Shown: positions 3,064 through 58,222 of the stretch, piece by piece
Layout of the letters: every line of letters starts with the position of its first letter
Position numbering within the stretch: the first letter of the stretch is position 1
Source of the DNA: Coffea arabica
Lineage: Eukaryota; Streptophyta; Magnoliopsida; Gentianales; Rubiaceae
NCBI RefSeq assembly: GCF_036785885.1
Contig: NC_092317.1
Coordinates: forward strand, 1,490,501 to 1,554,500
DNA: 64,000 nucleotides
Direction: 5' to 3'
Notes under the pieces: model-generated
The model's database searches: none
What the model saw: the letters and a program-made list of their open reading frames with translations, nothing else
Told to the model about the DNA's origin: nothing
Made by a program: the position numbers and the translations under genes

Positions 3064-4071
3064 AAGAACAAACAAGACAATGACAAAACAAAAAATAATT
3101 TTCTAATTCCAGTTAAACATATCCTCCATCTCGTGAGACATCAATCCACATACAGCATATGATTGATTAAATATTGGGCTGCCCGACGCCTTAAACTATA
3201 GTTCATTTCCATATATTGCTTTAATTAATTACATGCACTTCACCCGAAATATTATACTACAGTACTAATTAGTTACTAATCTGAGAGGATGCCAAATAGG
3301 CACATGCATCGAATGGTGCTCCATAAATGCTCCACTCGTTTTCCTTTTTATTAATTCTCTTCGATTATTGTCTAATGACCTTTACATCTCAAGTTTAGGA
3401 ATTAGGATTAAAGAAAAAGTTGTTGCTGATTATAGTTCTAGAACCCAACTTTTTCCTTTACGATTGGAAATATTTTAATTATTCATATTTGGACATCGTG
3501 AAAGAACTTCGATTAAGACTAGTCAATCAAACATTAGTCGTCAGAATTTCTAAAATGGAAACAGGTCAGCATCTATCAGTGAACTTCTTATATATATATA
3601 TATATATAGTAAATTTTATATATACTGACAGCGTATACACTATCATCGTTGAATTCATGACATGTGTGCAAAAATTGAAATTCAAATGTTGCATAGTTAT
3701 CATTCATCCAATGCTGACAGTGTAGGAATGATTAATTCATATATATATATATCATTCTTCTCCTAGTTGTTAATTGGCTTAGATAGCGAATTCCTGTCAA
3801 TTTAATTTTCTTGTTAAAGAACCCTTGTTTGTAGACAAAGCCTCCATCTTCATTTGAATTTTTCCTGAAATCATAGATTAAATTTCAGGAATTTTTTCGG
3901 GTAGACTAGAAACTAGAAAGTAGTACTCAGCATTCTGATCTTGAAAACAGGGAAGGGTACGTAGTAGACTGGTGGATTGGGATGGTTAGGCAGCCATGCG
4001 GCCGGGTTGGCTCACTAGTTGTTTTTTGTTTTATATAGGAAGAAGCGAAAAGCAGAAATGTCAGAAATTTC

Positions 4072-4468
4072 TGCGATGGATGCTTGTTTTTCCCTTTCAT
4101 AACTCACAATTTTTTGTATGAGTGTTTCGATAAATGGACTCTGCGAAGACACTTCAAAAGCCGGCAACTTTTGAAGTGCTCCGCAGCACTTAACTACTAA
4201 ACCCCCCAAACCCCCCCAAGCGATGTGGGAACTTAACCCCACAGGGTGCCCCGCTGCTAAGAGATAAAGACCCCCCAGACTCCCCGAGACAGGTTTTTCC
4301 CTTTCATAACTCACAGTTTTTTGTATGAGTGTTTCGATAAATGGACTTTGCGAAGACACTTCAAAAGCCGGCAACTTTTGAAGTGCTCCGCAGCACTTAA
4401 CTACTAAACCCCCCAAACCCCCCCAAGCGATGTGGGAACTTAACCCCACAGGGTGCGATGGATGCTTG
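4072..4468 (-). mobile_element. Two-unit SINE-like retroposon with 15-bp target duplication
   Basis: The 15-base sequence TGCGATGGATGCTTG occurs at 4072-4086 and again at 4454-4468, flanking 367 bp. The insert is made of two nearly identical 160-bp units (4087-4246 and 4294-4453) separated by a 47-bp linker. Read on the minus strand, each unit starts CCCTGTGGGGTTAAG and ends GAAAGGGAAAAA, a short A-rich tail. The linker probably belongs to the second unit as its 5' end, so the array may be one full-length element of about 207 bp plus one 5'-truncated copy. A long target duplication with A-rich tails is the mark of LINE-driven retroposition. I see no clear tRNA-type A and B boxes, so the SINE family is unassigned. 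The 154-residue open frame across it is repeat translation. Confidence 0.65.
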
Positions 4469-4780
4469 CAGTTAAACAATTTTTGGAGGTTTACTGATCA
4501 TGAAATGATGAAGCAATTGAAGGACTAAAGGGTGGGAGAAAAAGTGAGGTAGGATGGATAATCTGCCTTTTAGCCATGAAGCTTGTCTCTGCTACAATTT
4601 AATCAATGACTCAATCATGTTACTGTAAATTTTGCAAAAGTTTTAAAAGAGGGGTCTACAAAAAGACTAGCTAGCAATTCAAAGCACCCACCGCATCATG
4701 ACTGAAAGAGAAAATTTTTACAACAAAAATAAATCAAACACCTCTGTCTCCCTCTCTCTTCCTTTCTTTCCATCTCTCTC

Positions 4781-4788: not shown

Positions 4789-5739
4789 TATACAAATCAA
4801 ACCCTCTTTTTACATGACTGCTTTTTCCACCTACTTTTTTAAGAGAAGGGAAAGGTGGTGGATTTGAGCTGAGCCAAAAAAGTGTGCTAAAAAAAAAAAA
4901 ATTGAACTTTGTTAAAAGCAAAGAAAAGATGAGATTTTTCTGGGGGTGGGAAGGCAACAAAAGAAAAGACAGAAAGTGCACGTCAGAGTTAGCCGTAGGG
5001 TTGTGGCCTTCTCTTGGGATGTGCTAGCAGCCAGCTCTGGACAAGAGTTTGAGGATTACAGAGCGATGCCTTCTCAATTCTCATCCACACCCATCCTTCT
5101 CTCTCCCATCTAAAAAAAGAAAAAGAAAAAGAAAAAGAAAAAACGGTCTTACTAGCTAGAAGCCCAGAAGTTGTTGGTTTGGTCTAGTTCAATACATGCT
5201 TTGTTCTTTTATGCGTGTGCTATAATTGGATTTTCTTGAATTTAGCAAGAAAAGCCATTGAATCATGATCAAGTAGCAGTAGTGGGTGAAGGGTGGTTGT
5301 CTTCTTTCTTTTCTTTTCTGTTTTCATCAAAAAACAAAACGTTGTCTCTTGGGTTGATGCCAAAGGAAGAAGAGAACATCGTCTCAGGAGAGGCTGCAGC
5401 TGAAGGCAAATTTTGGGATTCAAACAAACAAAGAGTCTTGCTTTGAAAAGAAAAAAAGAAAAGGAAAAAAAACGTATCTTTTTGCCGCTGTACCTGATTC
5501 CTCTTCTTCTCTCTTCTTCTCTTTCTCCATTTTCACCTGCTTTAATGCTTTTTTTCTAGGTCTCGATTTGTCTCTAGATCTCGCACACATATCTTTCTCT
5601 TACATGGTAGTACTACTAGTACTGCTTTAAATTTTAAGGTTTGTGACTCATGCTGCAATATCCCTTTAGATATCTTGAAAGTTTGCGATGATTAGAAGTA
5701 GCTGCTGATGTTAGCCAGCTCATATATATCATAAGACGA

Positions 5740-40776: not shown

Positions 40777-43707
40777 ATGGAGTCTAGTTCTGCTCCGGTA
40801 AACTCCAATTTTGAGCCTCGAGAAGATGTGGAGTTTGATTCTCATGAGGCAGCATATGAGTTATATAAAGAGTATGCCAAGTCTGTGGGGTTTGGTACGG
40901 CGAAATTGAGTAGTCGTCGTTCTAGGGCATCTAAGGAGTTCATTGATGCCAAGTTTTCGTGTATAAGATATGGAAATAAGCAACAGTCCGATGATGCTAT
41001 TAACCCAAGACCTTCCCCTAAGATAGGTTGTAAAGCAAGCATGCATGTGAAGAGGAGGCCGAATGGGAAGTGGTATATACATAGTTTTGTGAAGGAGCAT
41101 AATCATGACCTTTTGCCAGCTCAAGCTCATTTTTTTCGAAGTCATAGGAATGTTGATCCACTTAAGAACGATTCAAAAGTACGAAGAAGGAAGATTTTGG
41201 CTTCCATGACCAAACAATATGGTGTGTATCAGCCCTCTGGTCCAGTAGAGAATTTTATCCGGAATCAGCATGATAGAGGTCGGAGTTTGACTCTCGAAGA
41301 AGGAGATGGCCAGGGTTTGCTCGATTTTTTTATGCATATGCAGGAAGAAAATCCAAGGTTTTTCTATGCAGTAGATTTTAATGAAGAGCATCGACTGAGA
41401 AATGTGTTTTGGGTCGATGCTAAAGGTATAGATGATTATGCTTATTTTAGTGACGTCGTGTTGTTTGACACCACATATTTCTCAAACAAGTATAAGCTCC
41501 CTTTAGTTCTTTTTATTGGAGTGAACCATCATATCCAGCCCATATTGCTCGGTTGTGCATTGATTGCAGATGAAACTGTGTTTACATTCGCTTGGTTGAT
41601 GCAAACATGGTGCCTGGCAATGGGGGGCCATGGACCGCAAGTTCTACTGACTGATCAGAACCATTCAATGAAAGCAGCTGTTGCAGCTGTCTTTCCTGAT
41701 ACGCGTCACTATTTTAGCCTGTGGCAAGCATTGGATAAGATTCCCAGACAACCTCAATATCTTAACCTTTGGCATGAAACCTTTTTGGCAAAATTTAGGA
41801 AATGTATACACAAGTCATGGACTGAGGAGCAATTTGAAAAGAGGTGGTGGAAGTTGGTTGAAAGATTCAATCTTCGGGATGATCAGTGGATGCACTCACT
41901 CTATGAAAATCGCAGACTATGGGTGCCTACTTTCATGAGGGATTTCTCTTTTTCTGGTTTGTCTGTGGCTTCAAGATCTGAGAGCCCGAGCTCTTTCTTT
42001 GATAAATATGTACTTGCTGAAACTTCTTTGAAAGAATTTGTCAGACAATATCAGTTAGTCCTGGAAGACAGGTATGAAGAGGAAGCTAAAGCTAATTTTG
42101 ATGCTTGGCATGAAACACCCGAGTTGAAATCTCCTTCACCTTTTGAGAAACAAATGTCTCTTGTATATACTCATGAAATATTCAAGAAGTTTCAAGTGGA
42201 GGTGTTGGGAGCAGCTGCATGTCATCTCAAAAAAGAAAAAGAAGATGAGTCCAGTATAACATATGCTGTCAAAGATTTTGAAAATAATGAGGATTTTATG
42301 GTGGAGTGGAGTGAACAGAAATCAGAAATATATTGCTCGTGCCGCTCATTTCAATACAGAGGCTACCTATGTAGGCATGCCATTGTGGTTCTCCAAATGT
42401 CAGGTGTTTTTACCATCCCATCCAAATATATATTGCAGAGGTGGACAAATGCTGCCACAAGCAGGCATTCTATTAGCGAGAGATTGGATGAGGTACAGAA
42501 TAAGGTCCGTCGATACAATGACCTGTGTCGACGAGCCATAATATTGGGGGAAGAAGGGTCATTGTCTCAAGAGAGTTATAACATTGCAGTTGGTGCCATA
42601 AGAGAAGCTCAAAGACAATGTACAAGTGTGAGTAACTCTGCTGACAATAACTTGAGGACAGGCACCTCAACAGCACTAGCAATTCATGGTACTGAGGAAG
42701 CAAATCAAGGTGATATTGCAATGGATGTAGGGGAGGTGCGAGGTAATATGGTGACGCGGACGAATAAAAGCTCTAAGAGAGCACATTCTGGAAAAGAAAG
42801 AGAAAGTGAAGTCAGCAATTCTAATAGGAAAGGGAAGGTTAGTTATTCTCTATCTCCACTTTTAATTGGCTTTTCATGTTTGTCAAATTGTCTACTGTTT
42901 AATGAACTCCTGTCTGATATACTTTTTGTATACTGCAGGTGGCAATGGAGCCCGAAGCAGCAAATGTTGGGTCACATGGCGACTTTCACTCAGTGGTTTG
43001 TCATATATGCTCTCTAATCCTCTTATTTAACTAAAAAAATGTGGTTATGCTAGATTGTTAGGCTTGGAAAAGATGTTAGTTGTGATCATGTATGCGCATT
43101 GGGCAATCTATATGAAACATCTTAGACTTTTTGTTTTGATCTTCTATTCCTTTTGCAGAGAATTAAGACTATATTTTTTTCTCCCCCATAAAATATTTTG
43201 CTGACTGTAATATCTGGAAAATGTGGTGCAAATTTCAAGAGGAAAAAGAACTTATTAACTTGATTTATGTTCTATTAACTCGGTTATTAACTTATCACAT
43301 CTGGTGCGAGCAATTTTGGATTTATGCTCTATTGAATGGTGCATGAAACTTTCTTCTTTCTAGCACCTTGTTGGGTCTCTAAGCTGGCTTTGCTGAGTTG
43401 GTTTTGTGGTTATGCAAGCATTTTGTTCTAGGATTTGTAAAATTACATAAGATAATTCTCTTTGCGTGGAAAAATAAGTGAACAATGAACTAGTGGTAGG
43501 ATGCTTACACGATCAATCAACTTTGATTTTCAGCTTAAAATTGGATTCTGTATTGGAGGATGACTTATTAGTTTCCATGTTGAGCAGGATATGCCCAGTG
43601 GCTTGGAATATCCTGCCATGTATCCAAGATTTCTTACAACGCTGTTAAGAAGCGGTGACATGAGCAAGAGAAGTGTGGAAATGCTTGGCGAAATGTTGGA
43701 GGAATAA
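40777..43707 (+). CDS. FAR1-related sequence (FRS) transcription factor
   Basis: Three exons, 40777-42837, 42939-42995 and 43588-43707, give 745 residues. FHY3/FAR1/FRS proteins are plant transcription factors domesticated from a MULE transposase and act in light and developmental signalling. The FAR1 DNA-binding domain (about residues 20-112) has the zinc ligands in SCIRYG, GCKASM and EHNHD. The MULE transposase-like core (about 225-320) retains FDTTY and TDQ aspartates. The SWIM zinc finger is at about 515-540 (CSC...CRH). Exon 1 reads through its donor for 59 codons before a stop; splicing AAG|GTTAGT to the AG at 42938, then the third exon from 43588, adds a plausible tail ending LRSGDMSKRSVEMLGEMLEE. 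No terminal inverted repeats flank the gene, consistent with a fixed host gene. I cannot assign the exact FRS number. Confidence 0.92.
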
Positions 43708-45408
43708 AGCTGAATTTACCAAATCTAGTGGATGTTGAACTTACGAGAGAGCTTTTTGTCCCTGTTGCTGATGCTGGCTTTCTTTGATTCACTACATTTG
43801 GAATATGCATGATCGTTTGACCGGCATATTGCCACACTACAGAAGATGGAATCCAGCAGCATTGAAGACCAAGGGGCGGCAAGCTCTTCTCGCGTGTTGC
43901 TAGGAAACAAAATATACAAAAATCGATCGGTCAAGCACTAACCCCTTAGGATTTCAATCTTGGAAAAGAAAAAAAAAATCCAATTTTTGCAACTCTGCAT
44001 ACTCTTAACATCTTTCAGGACACAGTCTGTTTTGCCTGCTGAATCCTGGCTCTACTCCAATGCAAAAGCACCCTTCGTTTTTGAGTAGCATTAGGGGGTA
44101 CCACAAAGCATAAATGTACATACTGAGAACGTTTAGTCAGTGTTGTGGAGCTTACGACGGTGCTGATGCTCCGATGGTTTTTTTTTTTTTTATCTCAAAT
44201 TTTCGCAAAAATCGACCTGAAATAACAGGATTCTCAACCTTGTCGCATCCCACATATGGCCTAGGGGCAAATTCCCTGAAGAATCAACATCACGATTTTA
44301 AATCAGAAAAATCAACGTAAGAATAAAAAATGATAGTGCTCCATGATTGGAGAAAAAGAAATAAAGAAACACTGCAAAGTTGACAAAGACTAAACCGTGG
44401 CTCCACCGCAATTAGCTGGAGGCACCCAAGCCCCAGAGAGCAAGTAATGTGTGCTTGCTGTATTATCTAAGCCATAGCACATATTAATGACCAATCATAG
44501 GCTCAGCTTATCATCAAGGAATAATAATACGAATGAATGAATAATATTTATGTTCGTGTAATAACATTTGCTAACCTTATCCCCATCATTCATGTCTTTG
44601 CTCATGCTTCTTCAGATGCCAATTAATGACCAATTAACGAGCAGCTCGAAAGCTCGATTGAACTCGACTCGATAAGGCTCAAGTTCGACTCGTTAATTGT
44701 GGTAAACGAGTCGAGCTCGAACTCGAGATATGCTCATTTAATTAACAAGTCGAGTAAGCTCGACTCGTTTGTTATCCGAGTAGCTCGATTAGGCTCGACA
44801 AGAAAGGGTATATATGTCATTTCACAATTCAAAAATATAAAAATTGAAAATTATAGATTTTTATTGGGGTTAATTTGCATGAGCTCGAGCTCGGCTCGTT
44901 TGATGAGCCGAATCCGAACTTGATTCGAGTTAAGCTCGAGTCGAGCTTGGCAGCCAAATACTCGGTTCAATTAACAGCTCGGGTAAAGACTAGGTAGGCA
45001 TAGAATTTTGCATGGTGGGGTCTCTTCTTGTTTTCCTTTTATGTTTCAACTTCCTTCTTCGGACACACGTTAACTAACAAGTAGCAGACTGTATGACAGA
45101 AACCCATTTGGTTTGGTCAATAAATCATACTTATCATGGATCACCATGGAAGAATTGTCTAGAATTGTCTTTGGGAGAGGGGGGGGGGGCCACTCTCACG
45201 TCTGATGTCCAACCAGAAATTATTTTATGAGCATATGCTTATTGTTTTCTTCGTTTCTTTCTTTTCTTCTTTTTTTTTCTTTTCTTTTTTGTGGGGTAAA
45301 TTGAGCTTGCATTTCTTTACTCCACCGACAGAAAGCAATTTCCGGCCTACCAGCTGAGTGCTGGCTCATTTTGATCCCATTAACCTTCTTAAATATATAT
45401 ATATATAT
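43708..45408. other. FRS 3' flank and intergenic DNA
   Basis: The first few hundred bases are probably 3' untranslated sequence of the FRS gene. Apart from the CTCGA-rich relic at 44641-44990, I see only short low-complexity frames and a G run near 45180-45190. Confidence 0.5.
44641..44990. mobile_element. Relic of an hAT-like element with CTCGA repeats
   Basis: About 350 bp dense in CTCGA/TCGAG motifs on both strands: GAGCAGCTCGAAAGCTCGAT at the left and CAGCTCGGGTA at the right. The same type of subterminal repeat occurs in the hAT element at 1873-2490 and in the relic near 54775-55240. Ends are degenerate and no clear target duplication is visible. Confidence 0.45.
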
Positions 45409-45771
45409 AGTGAAACCTCTGTAAATTAATAACTTGAAAACTATACAAAGTCTAAGAAGTTTTAAATAATCAAGAGGCATCCATCTTGGGACCATGCACA
45501 ATCAATCTTGCAATCTCAGCTTAGACAACGGATGTTCCTGCATCTAAAGACAATAGTAAATTGTTTTCGACATTGCAAAATTCGTTCTGTGGAAGGAATA
45601 GCCTCAGAGAACTTAAATGATCCTTTAGATGAAAAAGACATTGATGATGATCTCAAAACGATAATCAATGATTTGGGCTACCGTAATAAAATGGATATAA
45701 ATTACCTATTGAATTTTTTGTGTGGAAATGATACTACAAGTTTAGAGGTTAAACTATACTTAAGCAGGTAG
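45409..45771 (+). mobile_element. Internally deleted pogo-type DNA transposon remnant
   Basis: The left end reads AGTGAAACCTCTGTAAATTA and sits in a TA-rich stretch; this matches the terminal repeat of plant pogo (Lemi1-like) elements, which insert at TA. About 80 bp further in, the frame 45508-45771 reads TIVNCFRHCKIRS, then an acidic segment DEKDIDDDL and LGYRNKMDINYLLNF. That is the C-terminal part of a pogo/Tigger DDE transposase, so most of the coding region is deleted. No matching right-hand terminal repeat was found before the (TA)n tract at 46015. Confidence 0.65.
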
Positions 45772-46014
45772 CGGGTTTCATTAAAATTTCGTAGTTCGTT
45801 TTGGGGGCATGACTAAGCCTAAAATTCTAATCCCTTCCTTTCTGTTTCTTCGTTTCAATAATGATGAAATAACGGATTAACGAAATTGCTTGCACGAATT
45901 ATAATCTTTTGGGATATGGAAATTTAGAAATGATATTCTGTTATTCCTTTGTGAAGTAAATTTTGCAAGATACTTCCAAAAAATGTTTAAGCACCAGTTA
46001 TTAGTTGTAAAAAG

Positions 46015-46068
<54 letters not shown>
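46015..46068. repeat. (TA)n microsatellite, about 27 units
   Basis: An uninterrupted TA dinucleotide tract of about 54 bp, the longest simple repeat in the window. Confidence 0.95.
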
Positions 46069-46070
<2 letters not shown>

Positions 46071-46572
46071 TAAGGGTGCTCCTTTGCGTAATTTTGAGTT
46101 ACCATTCAATTTGTAGAATCCATATTCAAAATATGTCGTCCCCCTACACTACATTTGGAAATGAGGGTACAAATTTGGCCCTTTCTTTGCAGCTACAAAT
46201 TTGATCATCTTTTGAAATCCATAATTGCCATAATTCCCAGTAAACGAAAGAGGCAAAGACATTGGCACAATCAAAATCACATATCAGTTTTTGAGATTAA
46301 TTTCACAAACAATTTTAAGTATGTATAGCAAAGAATTACCTCAATTTCTATCAAAACAAATTAAAAACAAACCCTATTTCCAACATAGATGTGCAACAAC
46401 AAAAAAAAAAAAAAACTATTCCCTAATAGAAACAAACCATATACCCACAAACCCAAAAAAAAAAATCAACGAACTACTAAAAAAAAAAAAAAAAAAGCTG
46501 TAGCAAACCACAAAATAGAAAATTAACAAAACTTTTTTTGTAAATGCTAACTCCCAAGAAATCTCTTTGAGC

Positions 46573-47349
46573 TTAGACCGTCCATTTCCAGATCTTGATT
46601 CGAAGGTCAACCTTACACTGGATATTGGATGTAGTCGCGGTGGTTGGCGCCTTTCCGGTGGGAACGGCAAGCTTGATCCCTTCACAGGTGACCTTTATTC
46701 CAACTTTCTTTGTTTTCAACCCTCCAACCTTCACTTTCACCTTAGTATTCAGCTGAACTTTCAAGGGCAAGCCGCCGTTCTGATTCTTTAAATCAGATTT
46801 TAACGTAGAAATCTGTGTAGCGTCCAAACTTTGACCTGAGCTGGAGATGACAGTTTTTAAAGTGGTAGTATTCTTAGTCCCGTGTTCGAAACTTGGGAAG
46901 GATCCATCACCAATGTCAACCCCGTCGGAGAGTACGGAAACATTGATGGGATCGTAAAAGAACTTGATTTTCTTATTGGGGTTGCGGGCAACGAGCGTGA
47001 AGTTGAATTTGGAGTTGACCCCAGTGGAGGTGAGGTTGAAGTGGGACAGTTGAAGGGAGGAGACGCTGAAGTTGGGGCGGTGGGGACGGTAGATAACCCA
47101 GAAGACGGCCCCGGCTACGGCGACGAGGACAAGGATGAGGATGATGAAGAGGGTTGTCCAGAGGCAGCAGGAACAGCAGCAGCTGCGGCTGTGGCGACGC
47201 TTGCTGAGTGATTGGGGGCGGTAGACAGGGCGCGTGGTGTTATTATAGAGCTGGCCTTTGGTGGGTGGAAATGTTGGGTTCACGGCTGCAGCGGTGGTAG
47301 TGGTGCCGTTGGCAGCGGCCTTGGCTGCCGGGTATACTCTATCTGCCAT
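46573..47349 (-). CDS. NHL13: NDR1/HIN1-like LEA_2 membrane protein (NHL13-like)
   Basis: An intronless gene of 258 residues. NHL proteins are plasma-membrane proteins linked to immunity; Arabidopsis NHL13 is required for full resistance to bacteria. The cytosolic N-terminus starts MADRVYPAAKAAANG and ends in a basic, cysteine-rich patch, RRHSRSCCCSCCLWTT, a candidate acylation site. One transmembrane helix follows (about residues 65-88), then YRPHRPNFSVSSLQLSHFNL and a LEA_2 domain to about residue 225 with possible N-glycosylation sites (NLT, NFT, NVS, NTT). The end KVDLRIKIWKWTV is typical of this subgroup. N-terminal alanine and threonine runs come from GCC/ACC repeats. The orthology to NHL13 rests on recalled similarity of the ends and the RPHRP junction. 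Confidence 0.9.
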   Translation of the reverse strand: MADRVYPAAKAAANGTTTTAAAVNPTFPPTKGQLYNNTTRPVYRPQSLSKRRHSRSCCCSCCLWTTLFIILILVLVAVAGAVFWVIYRPHRPNFSVSSLQLSHFNLTSTGVNSKFNFTLVARNPNKKIKFFYDPINVSVLSDGVDIGDGSFPSFEHGTKNTTTLKTVISSSGQSLDATQISTLKSDLKNQNGGLPLKVQLNTKVKVKVGGLKTKKVGIKVTCEGIKLAVPTGKAPTTATTSNIQCKVDLRIKIWKWTV

Positions 47350-47385
47350 CGTTTTGGTTTAACACTCTGTTGTTCCGGTCCCTGC

Positions 47386-47391
47386 CTTATA
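47386..47391 (-). promoter_or_regulatory. Candidate TATA box for the NHL13-like gene
   Basis: On the minus strand CATATAAGG lies 37-42 bases before the start codon. Transcription starting about 30 bases downstream would leave a 5' leader of only about 10 bases. The placement is tight, so a different start site further upstream remains possible. Confidence 0.4.
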
Positions 47392-50037
47392 TGGCTTGGC
47401 TTCTTTCTCTCTTACTGCTGAACTGTATTTGGAATCGGATTTTTCTTTCTTGAATGGATAGAAATACAGGCACAAATGCTATGTGTCTATATGTAGATTG
47501 CAGGAAAGAAATGGGGAAGGAAAGAGAGATGAGGGAGAATTGGAATTTTGAGTTTTCGGGGTGGAGGAGATGGATGGAAGGTAGAATGGCAATAGAAAAG
47601 TTAGGCGGGGAGAGGGACAAGAACTCTATAACAACTACTACAAATAATAGAAGGTCCAAGCTATAATTAGCTATTCGTAACTCTTAATCTAATGGATACG
47701 TCAACAGTAATTTTTTTTTTGTTTTTTTTTAAGGATATATATATTTTTATTGATTTAACAACTTTTCATTTTGCTTTTGCTTTTACAAATTTTTATGGCA
47801 GGAATTTGGTAGAGGAATAGGACGAAGAGTAGTCACTCTTTTAACCAAACTAGGAGGTATAAAACGCGCGATGCGCGTAGGTAATTAAAGACAATATGCC
47901 CTGCCAAATTTGCTAAATATGCGTGGGTAATAGTGCTTTGTGTTCCCAATCGAATTTAAAAAAAATGTTGAAATTATAAGTTTGATTACACTAATCGTTA
48001 GAAGATGAACATGGAGTGTGCAAAGCATACATTATTTAAGAGACTGGAATAATCTGTCAAATATGTAGATTAAGGGAGCAATTAAATTTCGGTGCATTGT
48101 TCTTTTATCCAGCATGGTATGCAAAATTTTTTTTTTTTTTTGTATCTAAATTTAGAGTTAAAAGAGAAAATCAATTTACTTGATATTCAAATTGAGAACG
48201 GTTGAATAAGAGTTCATTTAAGAGGATCACTAACTAATGAAACCGAAATGAATAACATTTTGAGTGTGTAAATTTTTAAGTTCAACCCAATCTTATGCTA
48301 ATTTCAGATTTGCGTAAAAAATGTCAAGCTACTTAAGTTTGAATTAATAAAATTATATTTGAGTTTGATTCAATAATGAATAAGCTTAATTTTAAAAGCT
48401 TTAGCAAATTGAATTATTCCTCAAATAATGACGTTGGTAAGATAAGAAACTCCTTAGACTGGATTCAAATGGATTAGATCCAAGAGTTTATAGTGCAATA
48501 TGTTCAAAATTGAAATTTAAGATGGAAAATTAGAATCGAGTATACGTTATTAGGCGAATGCACAACGGAATTAGTCCTTTAAATTTGAATCAATACTCAA
48601 AGTCTTAAGGGTTTGTATAACATTTATTGGCAAGATTTGAAATGAATGTGCTTAGATTTTTTACCCTTGTCAAAAACAAAAATCATAGAGGGATAACAAA
48701 GTCAAAGTTGGACCTTGTTAAATTTTTTTGGCTTGAATTCTATAACTAATCCAAGCTTGAAGATAAGCTCACTTACTGATTCAATATCAGTTAATAAGGT
48801 TTAAAAATACTTTTTTTTTGTTTATAATTCTTTGGGAACAAAGTACTTCAGTATTTCTAATTATTGCTTTAGCTGTAAAATTTGGAAAAGAACATTGATT
48901 TTTTGGTGCGGATAATCAAAAAAATTACTGTTTCCAAAGTGCTATAAACTTCAAGGTAATGCAAAGACTTCAAATCCATTACGTTACATGAACAGGGCAA
49001 CGATTCTGATAATGTAACTGGCTAGTGAACTGGATACGAAAAGCAAAAACTATAAACAGAAACTTAGTAGCTTGCAGGCTGAAACTTTATAAGCTGATGC
49101 TATACCTTTTTGGATTCATAACCTCTGCCTTCTGATGAACTTGCAAAAAGTAAATGAAAGCAATTAAAATTAATCCATTGCCGCATAAATAGTTGTAGCA
49201 AAGATAGATACATTTTTTGAAGAAGATACTACTGGGGAAAATAGAGCATAATCTTACATTGCATATGAACAGAAGCATTAAAACATCGAAAAGTACTGAT
49301 ATATTAAAATGCCAGATCATTGATACATTACAGAAATGCGTGTGATTAATTATGGCCTAATTGAGCTGAAGCTGAAAGTTAAAATGCCATGGATACATTT
49401 TTTCGATGCCTTTTCGATTGAATACAACAACAACAAAGGATGGTCAGCCCAAAGATTGGCAAATGCTCTTAGAATGCATTAACTTGAGTAGATATCACAA
49501 TGTAAAATATTCATGCGATTACAATCTTCCATTCATTAATTCGACCAAAAAAGGAAGAAAAAGAAAAGGACCTAACAGTCCTGTTCATAAAAGAATTGGA
49601 ACTTAAAAGTAAATGATATACGACAAAATATCCTACTACAGAAAATTTTGACCAAAAGAGAGAACACTCAGATAATTTTTCATCAGAGATACTGCAGTAG
49701 TTTACAACAACAAAGACAGACATGGATCTAGATAGCCTAGCATCCCAGCCAATCAGCAACTCAAAACAATATCAAATTGTAACTAAAAATGGCAAATCTC
49801 ATGTAACTGAACTGGGGTAACAAGCAACTGCTAGTATGATTAAACAAAAGAATTAGTTGCAAAATTGAATTTCTGGCTACAGTGTACAATTTACTGTTTA
49901 AGTTTAGCGTACACTATATAGAAAAATGATAAAAGCTTCCTGAAATGTGACATAAGAGAAAGCATCACTTAGAAACAATATTTGGCAGTAGTTCTGCAAT
50001 TTTACCATGATCAATACAAAAGTATGGAGAAACAAAC

Positions 50038-50175
50038 CTAAGAGACTTATTTAAATATGTAAGAATAACAAAAGACAAATCCTGAAACAGCTACAGCTGA
50101 TGGGTTTACACGCTTTTGTGAATGCAAAGGGCATAACATTCTATCTGGAGGCAGTGGAATTCCCTCCTTTGCAAC
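50038..50175 (-). pseudogene. PEX12: PEX12 fragment (RING-like end), decayed
   Basis: After an AG acceptor at 50176, the minus strand reads VAKEGIPLPPDRMLCPLHSQ, then KRVNPSAVAVSGFVFCYSYI and FK. This matches the C-terminal, RING-like part of peroxin 12, the peroxisome-membrane ubiquitin ligase subunit that recycles the PEX5 receptor. Compared with the family as I recall it, the CPLC zinc-ligand motif has become CPLH, a later cysteine in FCYSC has become tyrosine, and the reading frame meets stops where FKYVSQ is expected (TAA for the tyrosine, TAG for the glutamine). The earlier exons are absent. A distant trace of the following exon (RCPV) may lie near 48990-49010. This is a pseudogene fragment; its intron-containing flank shows it came from genomic DNA, not an mRNA copy. 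Confidence 0.7.
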
Positions 50176-50672
50176 CTGTTTCAAAATGAAGCAATAATCT
50201 GTGTGTGAATATCAAATGGCTATAGAAACACAAAGTTCATAAAGTCCTTTATATTTTTTCATCCCTATCATTTTCTTTCATTTTTTTTCAATTTGTGTAA
50301 GAAACCTTACCATTATACCATTTCTGCACCTATAATTGTTATTTTTTTTCCATTTATTACCATCAATGGTGCTCCCATGCAAAAAATTTCCAAGACTTGG
50401 CAATGAGTGAGCCATATGTGTCAGATAGGAATAACTAAAATATGGAAACTATTCATATGAAACATAACAATTACCATGACTTTCTCACAAGTCACAAAAG
50501 AATATCCTACATGCTAGAAAATATACAAAAGAATATCCCACATGCAAGAAAATATAGTCTTAACAAGCCCACCAACCATTCGTGGAACTTCCTACACATT
50601 AAAAGAAAATAACCTCACCTTTACCACTATTCCATCATCTGACATTCACATCAATAATGAAAGTCATGAATT

Positions 50673-53086
50673 TTATTCGTTATTATTATCATGACATGGG
50701 CACAAGGGGCACATGATAGCCAAGGCCTTGGTACTTGATAGCCAAGGCACATGATAGCCCTGGCACAAGTCAGTTAGAAGGCAGTACTCATTCTTGGCAT
50801 GGTATGTAGCCATCAAGCCTGCATGTTTATGAAAAGAGCAAAATCCATTAATCCATCTGTTTTGGTGTAGCCAAAATTGACAGCAGCATATATATCTTTT
50901 GCATCAGAATGGGTATAGAAGACGTCAACCAGGTTAGGTGTTAGCCATATAGAAGAAATAATTATCAGGAAGACAGAATCTTAACATGCTTTCATTGAGT
51001 TCCTTCTAAGATAAGAAGAATGGTATAACTGGCAAGTAACATGCTCAAGAAAGGATTCAAGCAACCAAGCTCTGGGAAAAATCCTAATGCAGACCAAAAC
51101 ATCTTTTTCACAAAATACTATCAGAAGCATACAGCTATAAGCTTATATTATTTAAATAAAAAAGTGGTAGGATATGGAAGAATCTTAGCATAGCCTGCAG
51201 TTTGGACATCAAAGCCCTCATCCTGCCAAATAACAAAGTTAGAAGGATGCCAAAAGATTTGAGTCTTATGACAAGCAAATTCATTGTACCTGCAATTCTC
51301 TAATAAGTGGCAAACTACCAGTAATAGAATAGGGCTTTACATGCACCACTGCCTCTTCAGTCATTTTACATAGGACATGGAAACCAGGGGATTGAAGGTT
51401 GCAAGCAACTCCAGAATTTGCCTCGTTGTAACTTAGTGTGATTATGAGGGTAAATAAATTGTAAAACTGAATATTACACAATGAGTACCGTACTGATATG
51501 CAAAGAAAACTGATTCCATAGGACCATCACCCTACTTCCATGCTTGAAATTATAATCTCAGGGTGCAATGCAATTCACAACATAAATACTTGATCAAGGA
51601 ATGTCTTTATTAGTGGAAGGCTGTTCCATCCCCTATGTGGAAACAGAAGTTCTCATGACATCGGCATTTTTTTCCCTTATGTTGTTTGCCATCAGTGCTG
51701 CCCATTCCAACTCCCAAGGAAAAAGATAAAAGAGAACCCCAACGTGATGAAGCATGTCTATGACAGGAAGCCCAAACCTAAATATCCTTCGATGAAATGC
51801 TTTCCAGTTTGCAAGAAAGATGTGGGACTTTCTTTTTTGTTTATTTGAACTTTGAAAGAGCATACTCAATTAAACTTCTGGAAAGTGGAAAGATAAGAAG
51901 TAGAAACTGTAGAAAATAAGGGAGCTTTGGTTCTGTGATCCCTCCTAGTCTCAGATGAAGCATGTGGCTTTGAGTATAATGAAAGACCATTTACAACAGA
52001 GAAGTCTTAGTTCAAGATCTAAAATGTAGAATTTATCCCATATTCATAGATTGTATCCAGGGACAGTTTTAACTTTTCTGTCAATTTACAAAAAACTTTT
52101 GCATTACATTGTTGACTGTTGGGCCTAATATGGTTTCTTGCAGTGTTTATAATCTTAGGATGTGTAATTACCTTATGCATACTTCTTCTCTGTATATCAA
52201 AATTTTCTTGAATTAGTGGATAAATGATTTTCAATTTGACAAACTACAATCCCCTTTTTCATTCCTACCAAATTTAAAGTGAAAGCAACAACCACTCAGC
52301 ATGCTTCTACTAAACAAAGCAGTCGACAAAGGCATACCTTCCCCTTAGGTTTTCATCTGGTAGCACATATTTTGAAACAGGGTCCCTAGTATCAAGCTTC
52401 TCAATATTTTCATTTATGTCTTCTACATACTCCTGTAACTTCTTCAGCACATCTGATACACTGTTGAGGAGTGAATAATATATACTGTCAAACTTTTGAA
52501 TTGTTACCTGAATATCCTTCTAAACTCAACTGGTAAAGCTACAGCAGACTAAGTATAGGAAGATAATTAGTTTAAGGCTAAAACATAAAAATGAAGAAGG
52601 CAAAGGAATTAATTGTGAAATATCATAATCTGATAAATTAAATCATCCACAATTTAGTAAGGAGAAAAAAGGAAAAAATTTCCACCTGTAAAATGGAGTC
52701 AACCTGCAAAAGTAAAGAGGCATTGTTAGAAGGGTTTAGAAGTTCAAGATCCTAAACAAGAATATATAAAGAAATATGTACCTAACATCCCCTGAAACTG
52801 TACATTCAGCTGGATTTGGTTAATTCCACCACCTGGATCTGTAATATAAAATGCTTATTCAGAAAAATGGAATTGGATTGGCTGCTTATGACAAGTCAAA
52901 TATCACACTTGTCCGAGTTCTTCCACAATGTGATCAAGACTTACAAGACCATTGAGTTGGTTTCATTGTTGATGGTGTTGCAAATCCATAAACTTGTTCC
53001 TTAGGATGAGGAGGGAAATCTTTATAGAACCATAATTGGATCTCTTTGAGTGCTTCCATTGCTAGCTCCAAGGGATTAATAATAGC
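50673..53086 (-). pseudogene. Acetylornithine deacetylase, C-terminal half, decayed
   Basis: Seven exon-like blocks with introns still in place: 53086-52945 (AIINPLELAMEALKEIQLWF...), 52838-52782 (PGGGINQI...), an 18-nt block 52703-52686 (LTPFY), 52460-52338 (SVSDVLKKLQEYVEDINENI...), about 51440-51290 (ANSGVACNLQSPGFHVLC...), 51222-51189 (DEGFDVQTAGY) and 50818-50673 (LMATYHAKNEYCLLTDLCQ). Order and content match plant acetylornithine deacetylase (Arabidopsis At4g17830), an M20-family metallopeptidase-like enzyme linked to ornithine synthesis. The N-terminal half, with most of the metal site, is missing. Damage seen: one base missing in the second block (ATCCAGCTGAATG where ATC CCA GCT is expected), a CTAAG where the donor GTAAG is expected at 51188, no good acceptor for the fifth block, and a scrambled C-terminus created by a local duplication. 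Confidence 0.8.
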
Positions 53087-53548
53087 CTACAGAAAAAGAA
53101 AACTACTAAATGGAACACATTCACAGGTTCTTCCCAGTAATGGAGCATTCTTAATGTGTATGAACTTGCAGCAGTATTCCTCTTCAATCCCTCCAAGTTA
53201 TTGTCCAGCTAAATTATCATAACATTAATTCATCTACAGCCAAGCCTATCCTATTTATTTTTGGTGCACTGTGATCACTTATAAAAGGTCTTTTATTCAA
53301 GGATTAAGTTATTGAATCAACAAAGACAAAATTTTTTATATTATATAATTAAAAGATAAGATGAATTCAGAAGCACTTTTTGATTTTAAATATAAAATAT
53401 AGCAAACAGAATTCCATCGATCTAATTCACGAACTTATAGGATAACTATCTTACAAAATATCAAGATAAATAATAAAATACAAAGCAGAAACCTGGAAAA
53501 AAGAAAAACAGAAAGCTACAAAAAACAGAGAATAAAAAATAAATTCAA

Positions 53549-53936
53549 AGAAAATATACATTGACAAAAAAATAAGAAAACAAACAGATACAAAAAACAA
53601 AGACCACTTTCGAAGGAAGAAAAATCTTATAAAAGGAAACATCCAACTACAAAAAAAAAAAAAAAAACATCACGGACACCAACAAAACATATAGTTGGCC
53701 TTAAAAATCCACATAAGCAAAAAAAAGGTAAAAAATACATTTTCAAAAAAAATATACAAAGAAATAAGACAACAAACAGATACAAAAAACAAAGACTACT
53801 TTCGAAGGAAAAAAAATCTCATAAAAGGCAACATCGAACTACCAAAAAAAAAAAGGACCACGAACACCAACAAAACATATAGTTGGCCTTAAAAATCCAC
53901 ATAAGCAAGAAAAAGGTAAAAAATACATTTTCAGAA
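53549..53936. repeat. Tandem repeat, two copies, period about 188 bp
   Basis: Shared blocks in the same order: CAAACAGATACAAAAAACAA, ACTTTCGAAGGAA, ATAAAAGG.AACATC, CACCAACAAAACATATAG, TTGGCCTTAAAAATCCACAT and AAGGTAAAAAATACATTTTC. The block ending AGTTGGCC recurs 188 bases later (53700 and 53888). The copies differ by scattered substitutions and by poly-A length. Confidence 0.85.
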
Positions 53937-54480
53937 AAACCATCGAACAAGAAAGACAAAATCTGTACAAAAACTCATTCGATAAACCATATACAAGAAG
54001 TTCCAACAAAAAGGGGAAAAAAGCCGAAGGAAAATCAAACCAGCAATAAATTCTAACAAGAAGTCATTATTTACTTGTTACAACAAGAAGCAAAAAAAAC
54101 AGTAAGAAACGCCCCCTTTTCTTTCCACCAGAAGCTAAAAAATAACTGGGAAAATAGCACAAAAAAAAACAAAAAGCATGAAACAGAACAATGGAGGCAA
54201 TACCTTAAAAAAGCAGAACAAAATCAGAAATGCTTACATCATGGCCATGGATATCTGATTGAAATCATGTTTTTTTTTTTTGTGGGAAATGGAGAAGAAT
54301 TGCCCAAAAATTTTCTAAAATTTAAGCGAGAATCCAGGAAACTTTAGCTTTGCAGTTGATCGGAGAAGGAGAGAGAGGTGATTGACAACTTCTTTGTAGA
54401 GGAGAGGGTATAAGTGGGCTGGAGTTGCGGCCTGGAGGGATATGAGAGAATTTTTTGTTGGAATTCTGCCTAACTGGAGC

Positions 54481-54700
54481 TGCGGTTTAGGGTTGAAAGG
54501 AAACAAAGGAAAAAGGAGGAAGAAATGGAGAGTAGGGAGAAGAAAGAAAGCGGCTGAGGTTTAGGGTTGAAAAGAAGACAATGGAAAAAGGAGGAGAGAG
54601 AAGGAATGGAGAGTGGCGTGAGTAGCACGAGGGCCGACGAAAAAAAGCCTGGCACGCGAGGAGCACGAGGGCCGACGAAAAAAAATGAGCCTCAGGCCGA
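54481..54700. repeat. Two nested short direct repeats
   Basis: A GGTTTAGGGTTGAAA...GGAAAAAGGAGGA block occurs at about 54484 and again at about 54559 (period about 75 bp). Then AGCACGAGGGCCGACGAAAA occurs at about 54625 and 54662. The region is GC-richer than its surroundings and could derive from a 5' leader on the minus strand, but I see no start codon context I trust. Confidence 0.5.
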
Positions 54701-54774
54701 TGAAAAGAGCCTCAGACCAAAACCCCCACTCGCTCTTATTCTATATATGTTGAAAATTGTCACTGAATGGCTGA

Positions 54775-55240
54775 TGGCTCGCGGGCCGCTCGCTCGCGAG
54801 ATACTCGGATTGATCGAATTCGAATTCGAGTTCAAATTACTCGACAAAGAAAACAAGTTGAGTTTCGAGCATTATTATGTGTTACTCGAGTGCTCGTCGA
54901 ATAGCTCGAGTATTTCTTATTATTTATACAATATATTAATTATGATTATGAAATGACCAATAAGGGTATATAATTTACTCCCGTCGTTCCAATTATTTAG
55001 TCATATTTGGGAAATTCAACTTTTTAAAAATAGTGGTTTGATTGTAATATTTGTGCTTCTTTTTTTAATTTTACTCCCATAAATTCAAATTTTAAATTTG
55101 AATGGTAACATACATATGATTAGAAAAAAGGGTTATCACTGCTCGATCGAACTCGAATTCAAACTTGAGTAGTACCCTTATTCTTCGAGTTTGAGCTCGA
55201 GTTGGGTGCCACTAGAACTCGACTAGACTTGAGAGCACCC
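54775..55240. mobile_element. Relic of an hAT-like element with CTCGA repeats
   Basis: The segment is rich in TCGAG/CTCGA motifs near both edges, with an AT-rich centre. The right end reads CTTGAGAGCACCCCT, whose reverse complement AGGGGTGCTCTCAAG looks like an hAT terminal repeat. The left terminal repeat is missing or unrecognisable, and no target duplication was found. It encodes no transposase. Confidence 0.4.
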
Positions 55241-55689
55241 CTCACCACTTCGACGCAAAAATTGTCACTTTTGTTAAAAACGTGTTTTGTTCAATTATTG
55301 AACATTTTCTATAGCGGTTACCGAAACCAAAATTTGTTATTAAGAGTGAGTAATCAATGTAGTGTATATAATATTCGAAAATTGGAAATTTGTTTAACTT
55401 ATTTTTACATATGTTGACTAGAAAAATCGTGCATTAAGCTTGATCAAACTTACTAGTGGCTTATGCAGAATGATAATAATATGTAAATTTGGAAAACAAA
55501 GTCAAAGAGAAGATTGAATTGAACAGGGCATCTGAATTAATTCTCTCTCTTAAAACGTTTTAAATAGTAGCTCAAAAAATTGAAAGATGTGTGATTATTA
55601 TCTTAAATTGAAGTTGTCTCCACAAAATTTCATACTAATGATGACGCATTTATGAGCAAATCACAACCATAACTCTTTATCTCTTCCTT

Positions 55690-55975
55690 TTTTTTTTTTT
55701 TTTTGATATACTCTGAACGTGGAGTGGACGCTCCTCCGCAGCAATTGGACATGCGATTTGCAGGGGCGTTTCCCCATCACCAACTATAGTGAGCTTATGA
55801 ATTGTGAGGTTAAGACTTTGTGCGGAATCCCCATCATATTTTGTGTGTGGAAGCAGTTGTTAACCACGTGTGAGAGCAATCCATCGTATAGGCGCTCGAC
55901 TCCCCATTTACGCCCGCACATCAAACCAATCTAATTCGCATCACTGTACTGAAATTTGAGATTCTACTACTTTTC
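55690..55975 (-). repeat. Possible A-tailed retroposed sequence
   Basis: Read on the minus strand, about 270 bp of GC-richer, non-repetitive sequence ends in a run of about 18 A residues (T run at 55690-55707 on the plus strand). It stands out sharply from AT-rich flanks. I do not recognise the sequence, and no target duplication was found, so its origin is open. The 71-residue frame on the plus strand has no family features. Confidence 0.3.
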
Positions 55976-57737
55976 GTTGTAAACAATAAAGGAATCAATA
56001 TTCTATATATACTGACACATACTTTAAATTTAAATTTAAAATCTAAAATTCGCATATATATCATGCATTCAATCGTAACAATAGATGCACTGTTAGTCAG
56101 TCAGTATATATAAGATTTACTCAATAATAATAAAAAAAAATCTTTTGCTTTGCAGGCTATAGTTCTGGCCTAAACAAATCATAGCCCCGAAGACTTAATG
56201 CTACTAATCTACTTCATTCACCAAACTTAACTTCAAAATAACTCCTTATTCGTACAAAATGTTGTATAATGGTAAACAAGAAATCCACAAATTATTCGCA
56301 CTCGAGATCAGTCTCAATAATACGAAACAAAGACAAATTCAAAACATATAAATGATCAAGCAAAGCTTAATCGATCCAACTAAGCTCAAGTCAACCACAG
56401 TCCCTATGTTAGGGTTCAAATTCTCCGTTCTTTCTCCTTGCGTCTTAAATCTTCTTACTCCTCATGTGCCAGGGAAAAATTATTTGAAAAAAAAAAAAAA
56501 AAAGGTCCCTACGTTAGGATGTGCTAAAATTTAATATTGCATGGGGCAAGAATTAGTGGGATAGGGATGGTGAAGGGTCCATTTGGTGGTGTGATTTTTC
56601 ACGTCTTAAAGTGCACCAACGCAATAAGTTGGGCAAGGGAAGTAGGCAATTGGAGAAGTACCTGATCTGATCCGATGAAAGATTCAAACAATTTGATTTA
56701 CTAATAATGAAGTTGGAGGGGAACCCAACACCATCCACGACCTAATTTCTGAGTGTTCTTGTTCATGTAACTTGCTTTTGCAAGCAATTTCTACGACCTT
56801 GTTGACTGAATGAATAGTAGGCATTTGTTTATTTAACTAATAATTTACCATTCATATTGCAACCGCGTGATAATGCCTTAGTGGTTTGGGTTCTCCAGTC
56901 CAGTGTTTACATACGGCAGGCAGTTCTTCTTGATTTTCTAAGATAAACCGTGTTCATCTTAGAGCGCGTGTCAACTGTCAAGATAATAAATGGTCTTCCT
57001 TTTTCCTTTTTCCTTTTTTTTTTTTTGGCAAAAATCTACTTATGCGTTGCCAAAATGTGACTTCGATCATGGGTATGTGGATTGCGATTTTCCTCAGAAA
57101 AATTGTTTGGTTTTCCGTGAACATATTTTTCTATCACCTTTTTATTTCACATATATTAAATTGTTACAGTAATTTTTCTACAGAAAATCCAGAAAAATGC
57201 ATTTGGAGCAGCATTTTTCAAAATTAGCAAAATAAATTCTTTGATATTTGTACACCCGTTGTTTACTATCAAACCCCCCCCCCCCCCCCAAATAAACAAA
57301 AAAAAATAATAAAAAATAAAAAGCCTAGTTACTCAATAAAATTCTCAAGTTATTAGTCTACCCTGTTTTCAGCTCCCAGTTTCTGCCCCCTAAATGGGCG
57401 GTCAATAATGAACTTAGATAGTATAAAATGTGCTAGTTGGATCTAAAGACCAGGTGTGCTTAGAAAGGGTCCAATGGGAGGTAATTTTAATATATTGAGG
57501 ACCAATTGCTTGAAAATTGAAGTCTTTTAACTAAGCTTGGAAATTTAACTTTAAGCCTTATTTCAGCAATTTGCTCCTTATTGGTTCTTTTGGCAAACTG
57601 GCTTCTTACTTTTTATACTGATTTTGACGTTGATGATAGGAACTTGTCTTTGACTAAGCAAAATACATATATATGTGTGTGTGTTGGAAATTAAATTGTA
57701 GGCTGTTGTCTTTTTTTTTTTTTTAGGTTTTCATAGG
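55976..57737. other. Intergenic DNA, no gene seen
   Basis: AT-rich DNA with homopolymers, including a pure C run of about 17 bases near 57275-57290. No exon-like sequence or element ends were found. Confidence 0.55.
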
Positions 57738-58222
57738 ATGGCAAAGGAATTTCTCTATAACAACTTGTACATTTTGAATAACTCAGCACTTTGGGTTTGC
57801 CATGTTGGACAAATATTGAACCGCATGTCACAAACCGCAATTCCGACATTCTATTGTGCCCTGCATAATCATCGAAAGGATCTTGGAGACCCACCAAAGT
57901 ACGAAAGTCAGGATCTTTCAGAAAATGGATTCCTATTCGAAGAGTGCATGACTGCATAGATAAGCTCACACTAACCCGTCAATTTGGGATCCAATTCGAG
58001 ATTTTTCTTGAGAGGTATCGTGAAAGAATTGGAATTCCTCTTTCCTACATAAAACACATTATGGTTACCTTGTTGCATAATTTCTTGCCATCAAGCAGGA
58101 CTATAGTACAAGTAAATCATTTTCTGCAAGTTCAAAACCGAAATAACGCATTAGGACACAATGAATGCACCATTACCATTAGCACTTTTCATAAACTTCG
58201 TCCTAGAAAGGGAATACTTTAA
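57738..58222. other. Unplaced high-complexity stretch, possibly organelle-derived
   Basis: About 480 bp of balanced-composition sequence bounded by low-complexity DNA. It is open for long stretches on both strands: plus-strand frames 57738-57959 and 57944-58222, and a minus-strand frame 57969-57691 that reads GIHFLKDPDFRTLVGLQDPF. Open frames on both strands without homopolymers are what a recently inserted plastid or mitochondrial fragment can look like. I could not match it to a specific organelle gene, and it could instead be part of an unrecognised transposon. Confidence 0.25.

Follow-up and report, generated by a model that had tools for sequence, protein, structure and literature searches.

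A candidate gene-capturing Helitron holding intron-bearing pieces of acetylornithine deacetylase and, probably, PEX12

Introduction

Where a Helitron-like terminus lies downstream of broken pieces of two unrelated plant genes, do terminus and pieces belong to one mobile element, or have they come to lie together by other routes? The locus considered here sits on the minus strand of a 64-kb stretch of DNA, the whole of which is called the window; its BIRD-IDD, LOB, FAR1/MULE-type and LEA_2 genes mark it as plant DNA. A first-pass annotation had proposed a Helitron at 47850-53361 that had captured parts of acetylornithine deacetylase (NAOD) and PEX12. We favor, with a probability of roughly 0.58, the reading that an old non-autonomous gene-capturing Helitron of ~5.5 kb (or 7.1 kb) lies on the minus strand and contains the NAOD and PEX12 pieces.

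A Helitron-type 3’ end

In its minus-strand orientation, the candidate element ends in CTAG (47850..47853) with T as the next base at 47849, and a 15-nt hairpin with a stem of 6 bp and a loop of 3 nt (47864..47878) lies 10 nt ahead of the CTAG. The passages on termini in two Helitron studies describe a CTRR end (mostly CTAG), a GC-rich hairpin 10–15 nt from that end, and insertion between A and T (PMC4683698, PMC6591975). Both the CTRR terminus (CTAG, 47853-47850) and the GC-rich hairpin (15 nt, spacing 10 nt) of a canonical plant Helitron are thus found here. The hairpin stands at the short limit in length, inside the 15–20 nt given in the relevant passage of PMC4683698 and one short of the 16–20 nt given in that of PMC6591975. 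Folded as single-stranded DNA, the hairpin stretch, selected for this test because the hairpin lies there, reaches -7.1 kcal/mol (z -3.4), whereas shuffles average -2.37 and 0 of 200 fold as well. The earlier claim of a Helitron-type 3’ end on this strand, with hairpin and CTAG/T exactly at 47850, therefore holds.

How often such an end arises by chance depends on the definition. Under a strict one (CTAGT, a 6-bp stem containing 5 or more G/C, spacing 2–16 nt), the window contains a single 3’ end compared with 3 in total over 60 first-order simulated windows, a chance rate of about 1 per 20 windows for an end that was picked after it had been sighted. A looser one (CTRRT, stems of at least 6 with at least 60% G/C, spacing 5–16 nt) yields 3 ends in the window versus a mean of 0.63 over 30 shuffles. 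The other two ends obtained with the looser definition, at 41658 and 41696, are inside the FAR1/MULE-type reading frame. The hairpin-CTAGT pattern gave 0 matches in viral contigs. Because a markedly strong 3’ hairpin is reported for only 9 of 35 Helitrons in the portion of a maize study that bears on this point (PMC2575219), the hairpin is neither universal among Helitrons nor proof of one.

Beyond the hairpin extends an AT-rich tail (47890..49000, minus strand), with 25–30% GC in the five 200-nt bins from 49000 to 48001, which is possibly the Helitron’s own sequence. Low GC also occurs outside the tail, at 24% in two bins spanning 53600-53201. Element positions 5180-5233 (window ~48124-48177) form another, weak inverted repeat, which was dropped, since 129 of 200 shuffles fold equally well.

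Broken pieces of two genes

Upstream of the 3’ end, and sense in the element’s orientation, lie the NAOD pieces and a PEX12-like exon. Reading frames delimit seven exon-like NAOD pieces between 53086 and 50748 on the minus strand, in the same orientation as the 3’ end and with introns retained, which we take to be the C-terminal half of a plant acetylornithine deacetylase, in order. Exon A (52945..53086, 142 nt) is placed by reading frames, Pfam, and splice sites. Exon B (52782..52838, 57 nt) is one base out of frame, as seen from exon phases that do not sum, the expected reading across it being our assumption. A micro-exon, C (52686..52703, 18 nt), is placed by its splice sites and exon D (52338..52460, 123 nt) by reading frames and splice sites, as is exon E (51290..51427), whose 5’ boundary is uncertain and whose acceptor is not placeable. 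The splice sites also define exon F (51189..51222, 34 nt), and exon G (50748..50818), placed by splice sites and repeats, is the final recognizable part and merges into short local repeats (50708-50764). With splice sites placed by eye, the acceptor is AG in 7 of 7 cases (exons A, B, C, D, F, G and the PEX12-like exon) and the donor is GT in 6 of 7 (A, B, C, D, E and the PEX12-like exon), exon F having CT instead.

When joined by hand, with X marking the frameshift, the NAOD exons match the Pfam family M20_dimer (E 1.5e-6; 28.6 bits versus a cut-off of 21) and, far under the NCBIfam cut-off, the NCBIfam DapE-ArgE profile (E 8e-4). Their single match in PDB is unrelated (E 0.13), and the 16 pattern matches to NAOD in bacterial and archaeal genome contigs comprise 0 relatives. 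The pieces are genomic, intron-bearing copies and not retrocopies, and they are broken. The intron-containing NAOD fragments described in the first-pass annotation are accordingly present, with the M20_dimer match and the splice sites in their support.

The second gene is represented by one exon (50038..50175, minus strand), located by reading frames and a pairwise match, which we take to resemble the PEX12 RING region; the identity is mostly presumed. Two in-frame stops interrupt it, and a zinc-binding cysteine has been substituted in the pairwise alignment, with a second such substitution judged by eye. The fragment shares 9 of 23 residues with a solved PEX12 RING, a weak match whose E value, 0.001, applies to this one pairwise comparison. 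An approximate plant PEX12 tail ranks the solved PEX12 RING first (E 2.5e-4) and an unrelated RING protein next (E 6.5e-4), among the 60 matches listed of 62. Alone, the fragment has 0 matches in Pfam and 0 in PDB; its 43 pattern matches in viral contigs and 373 in bacterial and archaeal genome contigs include 0 relatives. The second gene is likely PEX12, short of proof, as judged from its resemblance to the protein and the weak 23-residue match. Of what had been claimed for PEX12, a broken exon in the same orientation stands, and its name is less firm. Another exon-like stretch, 49140-49105, was weighed as a third captured piece and matched to no gene.

Candidate 5’ ends

Seven AT-rich TC...TATAAA sites are present on the window’s minus strand, and three of them are preceded by A (54945, 53361 and 53356). 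Two of the seven form a candidate 5’ terminus at 53329..53361, with A/TC at 53357/53356 or 53362/53361, and score a weak 6 and 8, respectively, out of a maximum of 13 against the maize consensus as it appears in the relevant part of PMC2267711. An alternative candidate terminus, at 54912..54945 with A/TC at 54945, is also one of the seven and scores 10/13. Position 49208, likewise A/TC and 10/13, is outside the set of seven. Because 299 of the 3824 TC sites scored reach at least 10, the commonest score being 7, the maize-consensus score discriminates little and cannot decide among the candidates. An A precedes all four named candidates, which were picked partly for that, and a T follows the 3’ end.

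The resulting element would measure 5507 bp (53356), 5512 bp (53361), 7096 bp (54945) or 1359 bp (49208), and a start at the last of these would exclude the gene pieces. The candidate non-autonomous Helitron is given here as 47850..53356 on the minus strand, with a supported 3’ end and a candidate 5’ end. The 5’ limit given previously, 53361, is one of several candidates and scores 8/13, against 10 for both 54945 and 49208.

Coding content and surroundings

Six-frame Pfam scans of 47850-53361 found neither a Rep/helicase nor an RPA, and the same scans missed the split NAOD exons. Because NAOD escaped them, absence in these scans is weak evidence. The Rep/helicase of an autonomous Helitron was not found in 47850-53361 by scans of this limited sensitivity, and the view that the element holds no transposase is supported but not proven. 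The three minus frames of this interval, at E up to 1, gave one listing, DUF948 (E 0.26, under its cut-off), and the three plus frames, at E up to 0.1, gave 0 families. A six-frame scan of the upstream flank (53357-58000) also gave 0 families. The missing N-terminal domains of NAOD and PEX12 had no Pfam match in 47850-53361 or 53357-58000, with the same limited sensitivity, and a PDB search with one minus frame of the element, out of three, gave 0 matches.

Elsewhere in the 64-kb window there is no second copy of any element part, the 10 weak matches reaching at best 17 nt (E 0.078). Scans of the window gave 0 Rfam matches and 0 tRNAs. A LEA_2-type gene is located ~0.5 kb downstream of the 47850 terminus in the minus-strand reading.

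One element or several

In the favored reading, a Helitron would have picked up, along with introns, a genomic piece of NAOD and one of PEX12 during one or several rolling-circle transpositions for which Rep/helicase would have been supplied from elsewhere; it would then have inserted between A and T, ~0.5 kb upstream of the LEA_2-type gene. Capture may have been stepwise, and the source genes would be NAOD and, probably, PEX12. A stepwise route is the view taken for maize Helitrons in the passage concerned (PMC3288121). As first proposed, the gene-capturing Helitron fits the 3’ terminus and the intron-bearing pieces in one orientation; those pieces would lie inside an element that begins at 53356, 53361 or 54945, and a start at 49208 would omit them.

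That shorter start leads to the main rival, a short Helitron such as 49208-47850 (1359 bp) lying beside or within an older pseudogene segment, itself the product of duplication or of another transposon. We regard it as rather unlikely, even though 49208 scores above 53356 and 53361 and the AT-rich block begins near 49000, a position compatible with either view. Non-autonomous Helitrons of that size are known, the Mothra elements measuring 1252-2741 bp in the part of PMC4683698 that lists them. Two neighbors would, however, call for a second explanation of why two unrelated broken pieces lie directly upstream in one orientation, and 49208 is not among the seven AT-rich TC...TATAAA sites. It is also conceivable that NAOD and PEX12 are true neighbors in a decayed ancestral or duplicated locus and that the Helitron-like end is fortuitous. 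The retained introns, the sense-to-sense arrangement of the two pieces and a chance rate of ~1 in 20 per window for the 3’ end all suit such a locus. Yet each gene is only partly recognizable, within ~3 kb; hairpin, spacing, CTAG and T agree together; and in Arabidopsis NAOD and PEX12 reside on separate chromosomes. A decayed locus is thus the less plausible of the two, and we consider it improbable.

Pieces of host genes are also carried by Pack-MULEs, according to the part of PMC13317346 that concerns them, and by CACTA elements, judging from the title of a reference in that paper. Either type of transposon could in principle hold the pieces seen here, but the long terminal inverted repeats of a Pack-MULE were not found between the flanks. 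With low-complexity filtering, inverted matches between 53201-58000 and 44001-48100 reach at most 21 nt (E 0.70), and the flank-joining inverted pairs, among the 25 pairs listed of 397, have A/T-rich low-complexity arms. A transposon of this sort is very improbable as the carrier.

Relation to known Helitrons

The captured-gene Helitron that we favor most resembles the maize HelA and HelB elements, as far as the passages of PMC3288121 and PMC2267711 describe them, in its CTAG end, its 3’ hairpin, the T that follows, several gene pieces and the lack of a detected transposase. Mean lengths of 6357 bp for helA, which holds 0-12 gene pieces, and 4629 bp for helB are given in the relevant part of PMC3288121, and the element here would be of similar length if it began at 53356, 53361 or 54945. 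It differs from them in that the maize consensus does not single out any of its 5’ candidates, and, as far as known, in its captured genes. Mothra, as presented in part of PMC4683698, shares the 3’ hairpin, the CTAG and, with the candidate as scanned here, the lack of a detected Rep/helicase; however, Mothra comprises short, high-copy elements that carry blocks of tandem repeats, whereas the candidate lacks a second copy in the 64-kb window.

The gene-capturing kind of Helitron is well known, and the NAOD/PEX12 pair may be unreported in the literature searched. Full-text searches returned nothing for NAOD, PEX12 and plant together. Neither PEX12 among the best-matching literature on Helitrons and gene capture nor acetylornithine deacetylase among that on Helitrons was found. 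Helitron with peroxin led to a firefly genome only, by its listing; words for the element’s sequence had no match, and Helitron with crop names gave none relevant by title among the best-matching papers. If the favored reading is true, this is one more plant Helitron that shuffles pieces of unrelated genes, and the understanding of Helitrons is unchanged by it. For annotation, the NAOD and PEX12 pieces here should not be called genes.

A more elaborate version, in which an element beginning at 54945 carries three pieces in one orientation and gives rise to a spliced chimeric transcript running toward the LEA_2-type gene, would amount to a newly assembled transcription unit; we find this far-fetched. 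The third piece in that version, accompanying the NAOD and PEX12 exons, would be a stretch at ~54640-54200 that resembles a promoter and leader and contains a splice donor. A T-rich 192-bp unit occurs in two copies at 53564-53939, outside the element if its start is 53356 and inside it if its start is 54945.

Short tandem repeats on the minus strand (50494–50556 and 50708–50767) lie at or past the end of the similarity to acetylornithine deacetylase (NAOD) in the candidate Helitron, and might represent either filler at a capture junction or simple slippage. Further along the same strand, positions 49140–49105 resemble an exon with a GT donor at its end; this stretch is possibly a third captured piece, beside the NAOD pieces and the exon read as the PEX12 RING region.

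Upstream of the NAOD pieces, a pyrimidine-rich minus-strand stretch at 54640–54200 resembles a 5' leader; it leads into a GTAAG-like donor and a region that is rich in T and looks like an intron. The flank containing it (53357–58000) returned no Pfam matches in six frames, and the stretch may represent either the orphaned 5' part of some gene or an additional captured piece. Also in this flank, CTCGAG and TTCGAGT-like words are abundant across 54810–55240, a pattern that resembles a different plant transposon. A 192-bp unit is present twice in tandem at 53564–53939 (90% matches; T-rich on the minus strand), barely beyond the near candidates for the 5' end (53356 and 53361, minus strand), on their outer side.

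Elsewhere in the window, a minus-strand open frame of 160 aa (4015–4497), in which a segment of ~45 aa is duplicated internally, has no Pfam match at E 0.001. The LEA_2 gene (46573–47358, minus strand) shares its strand with the Helitron-type 3' end, and its frame starts ~0.5 kb downstream from that end.
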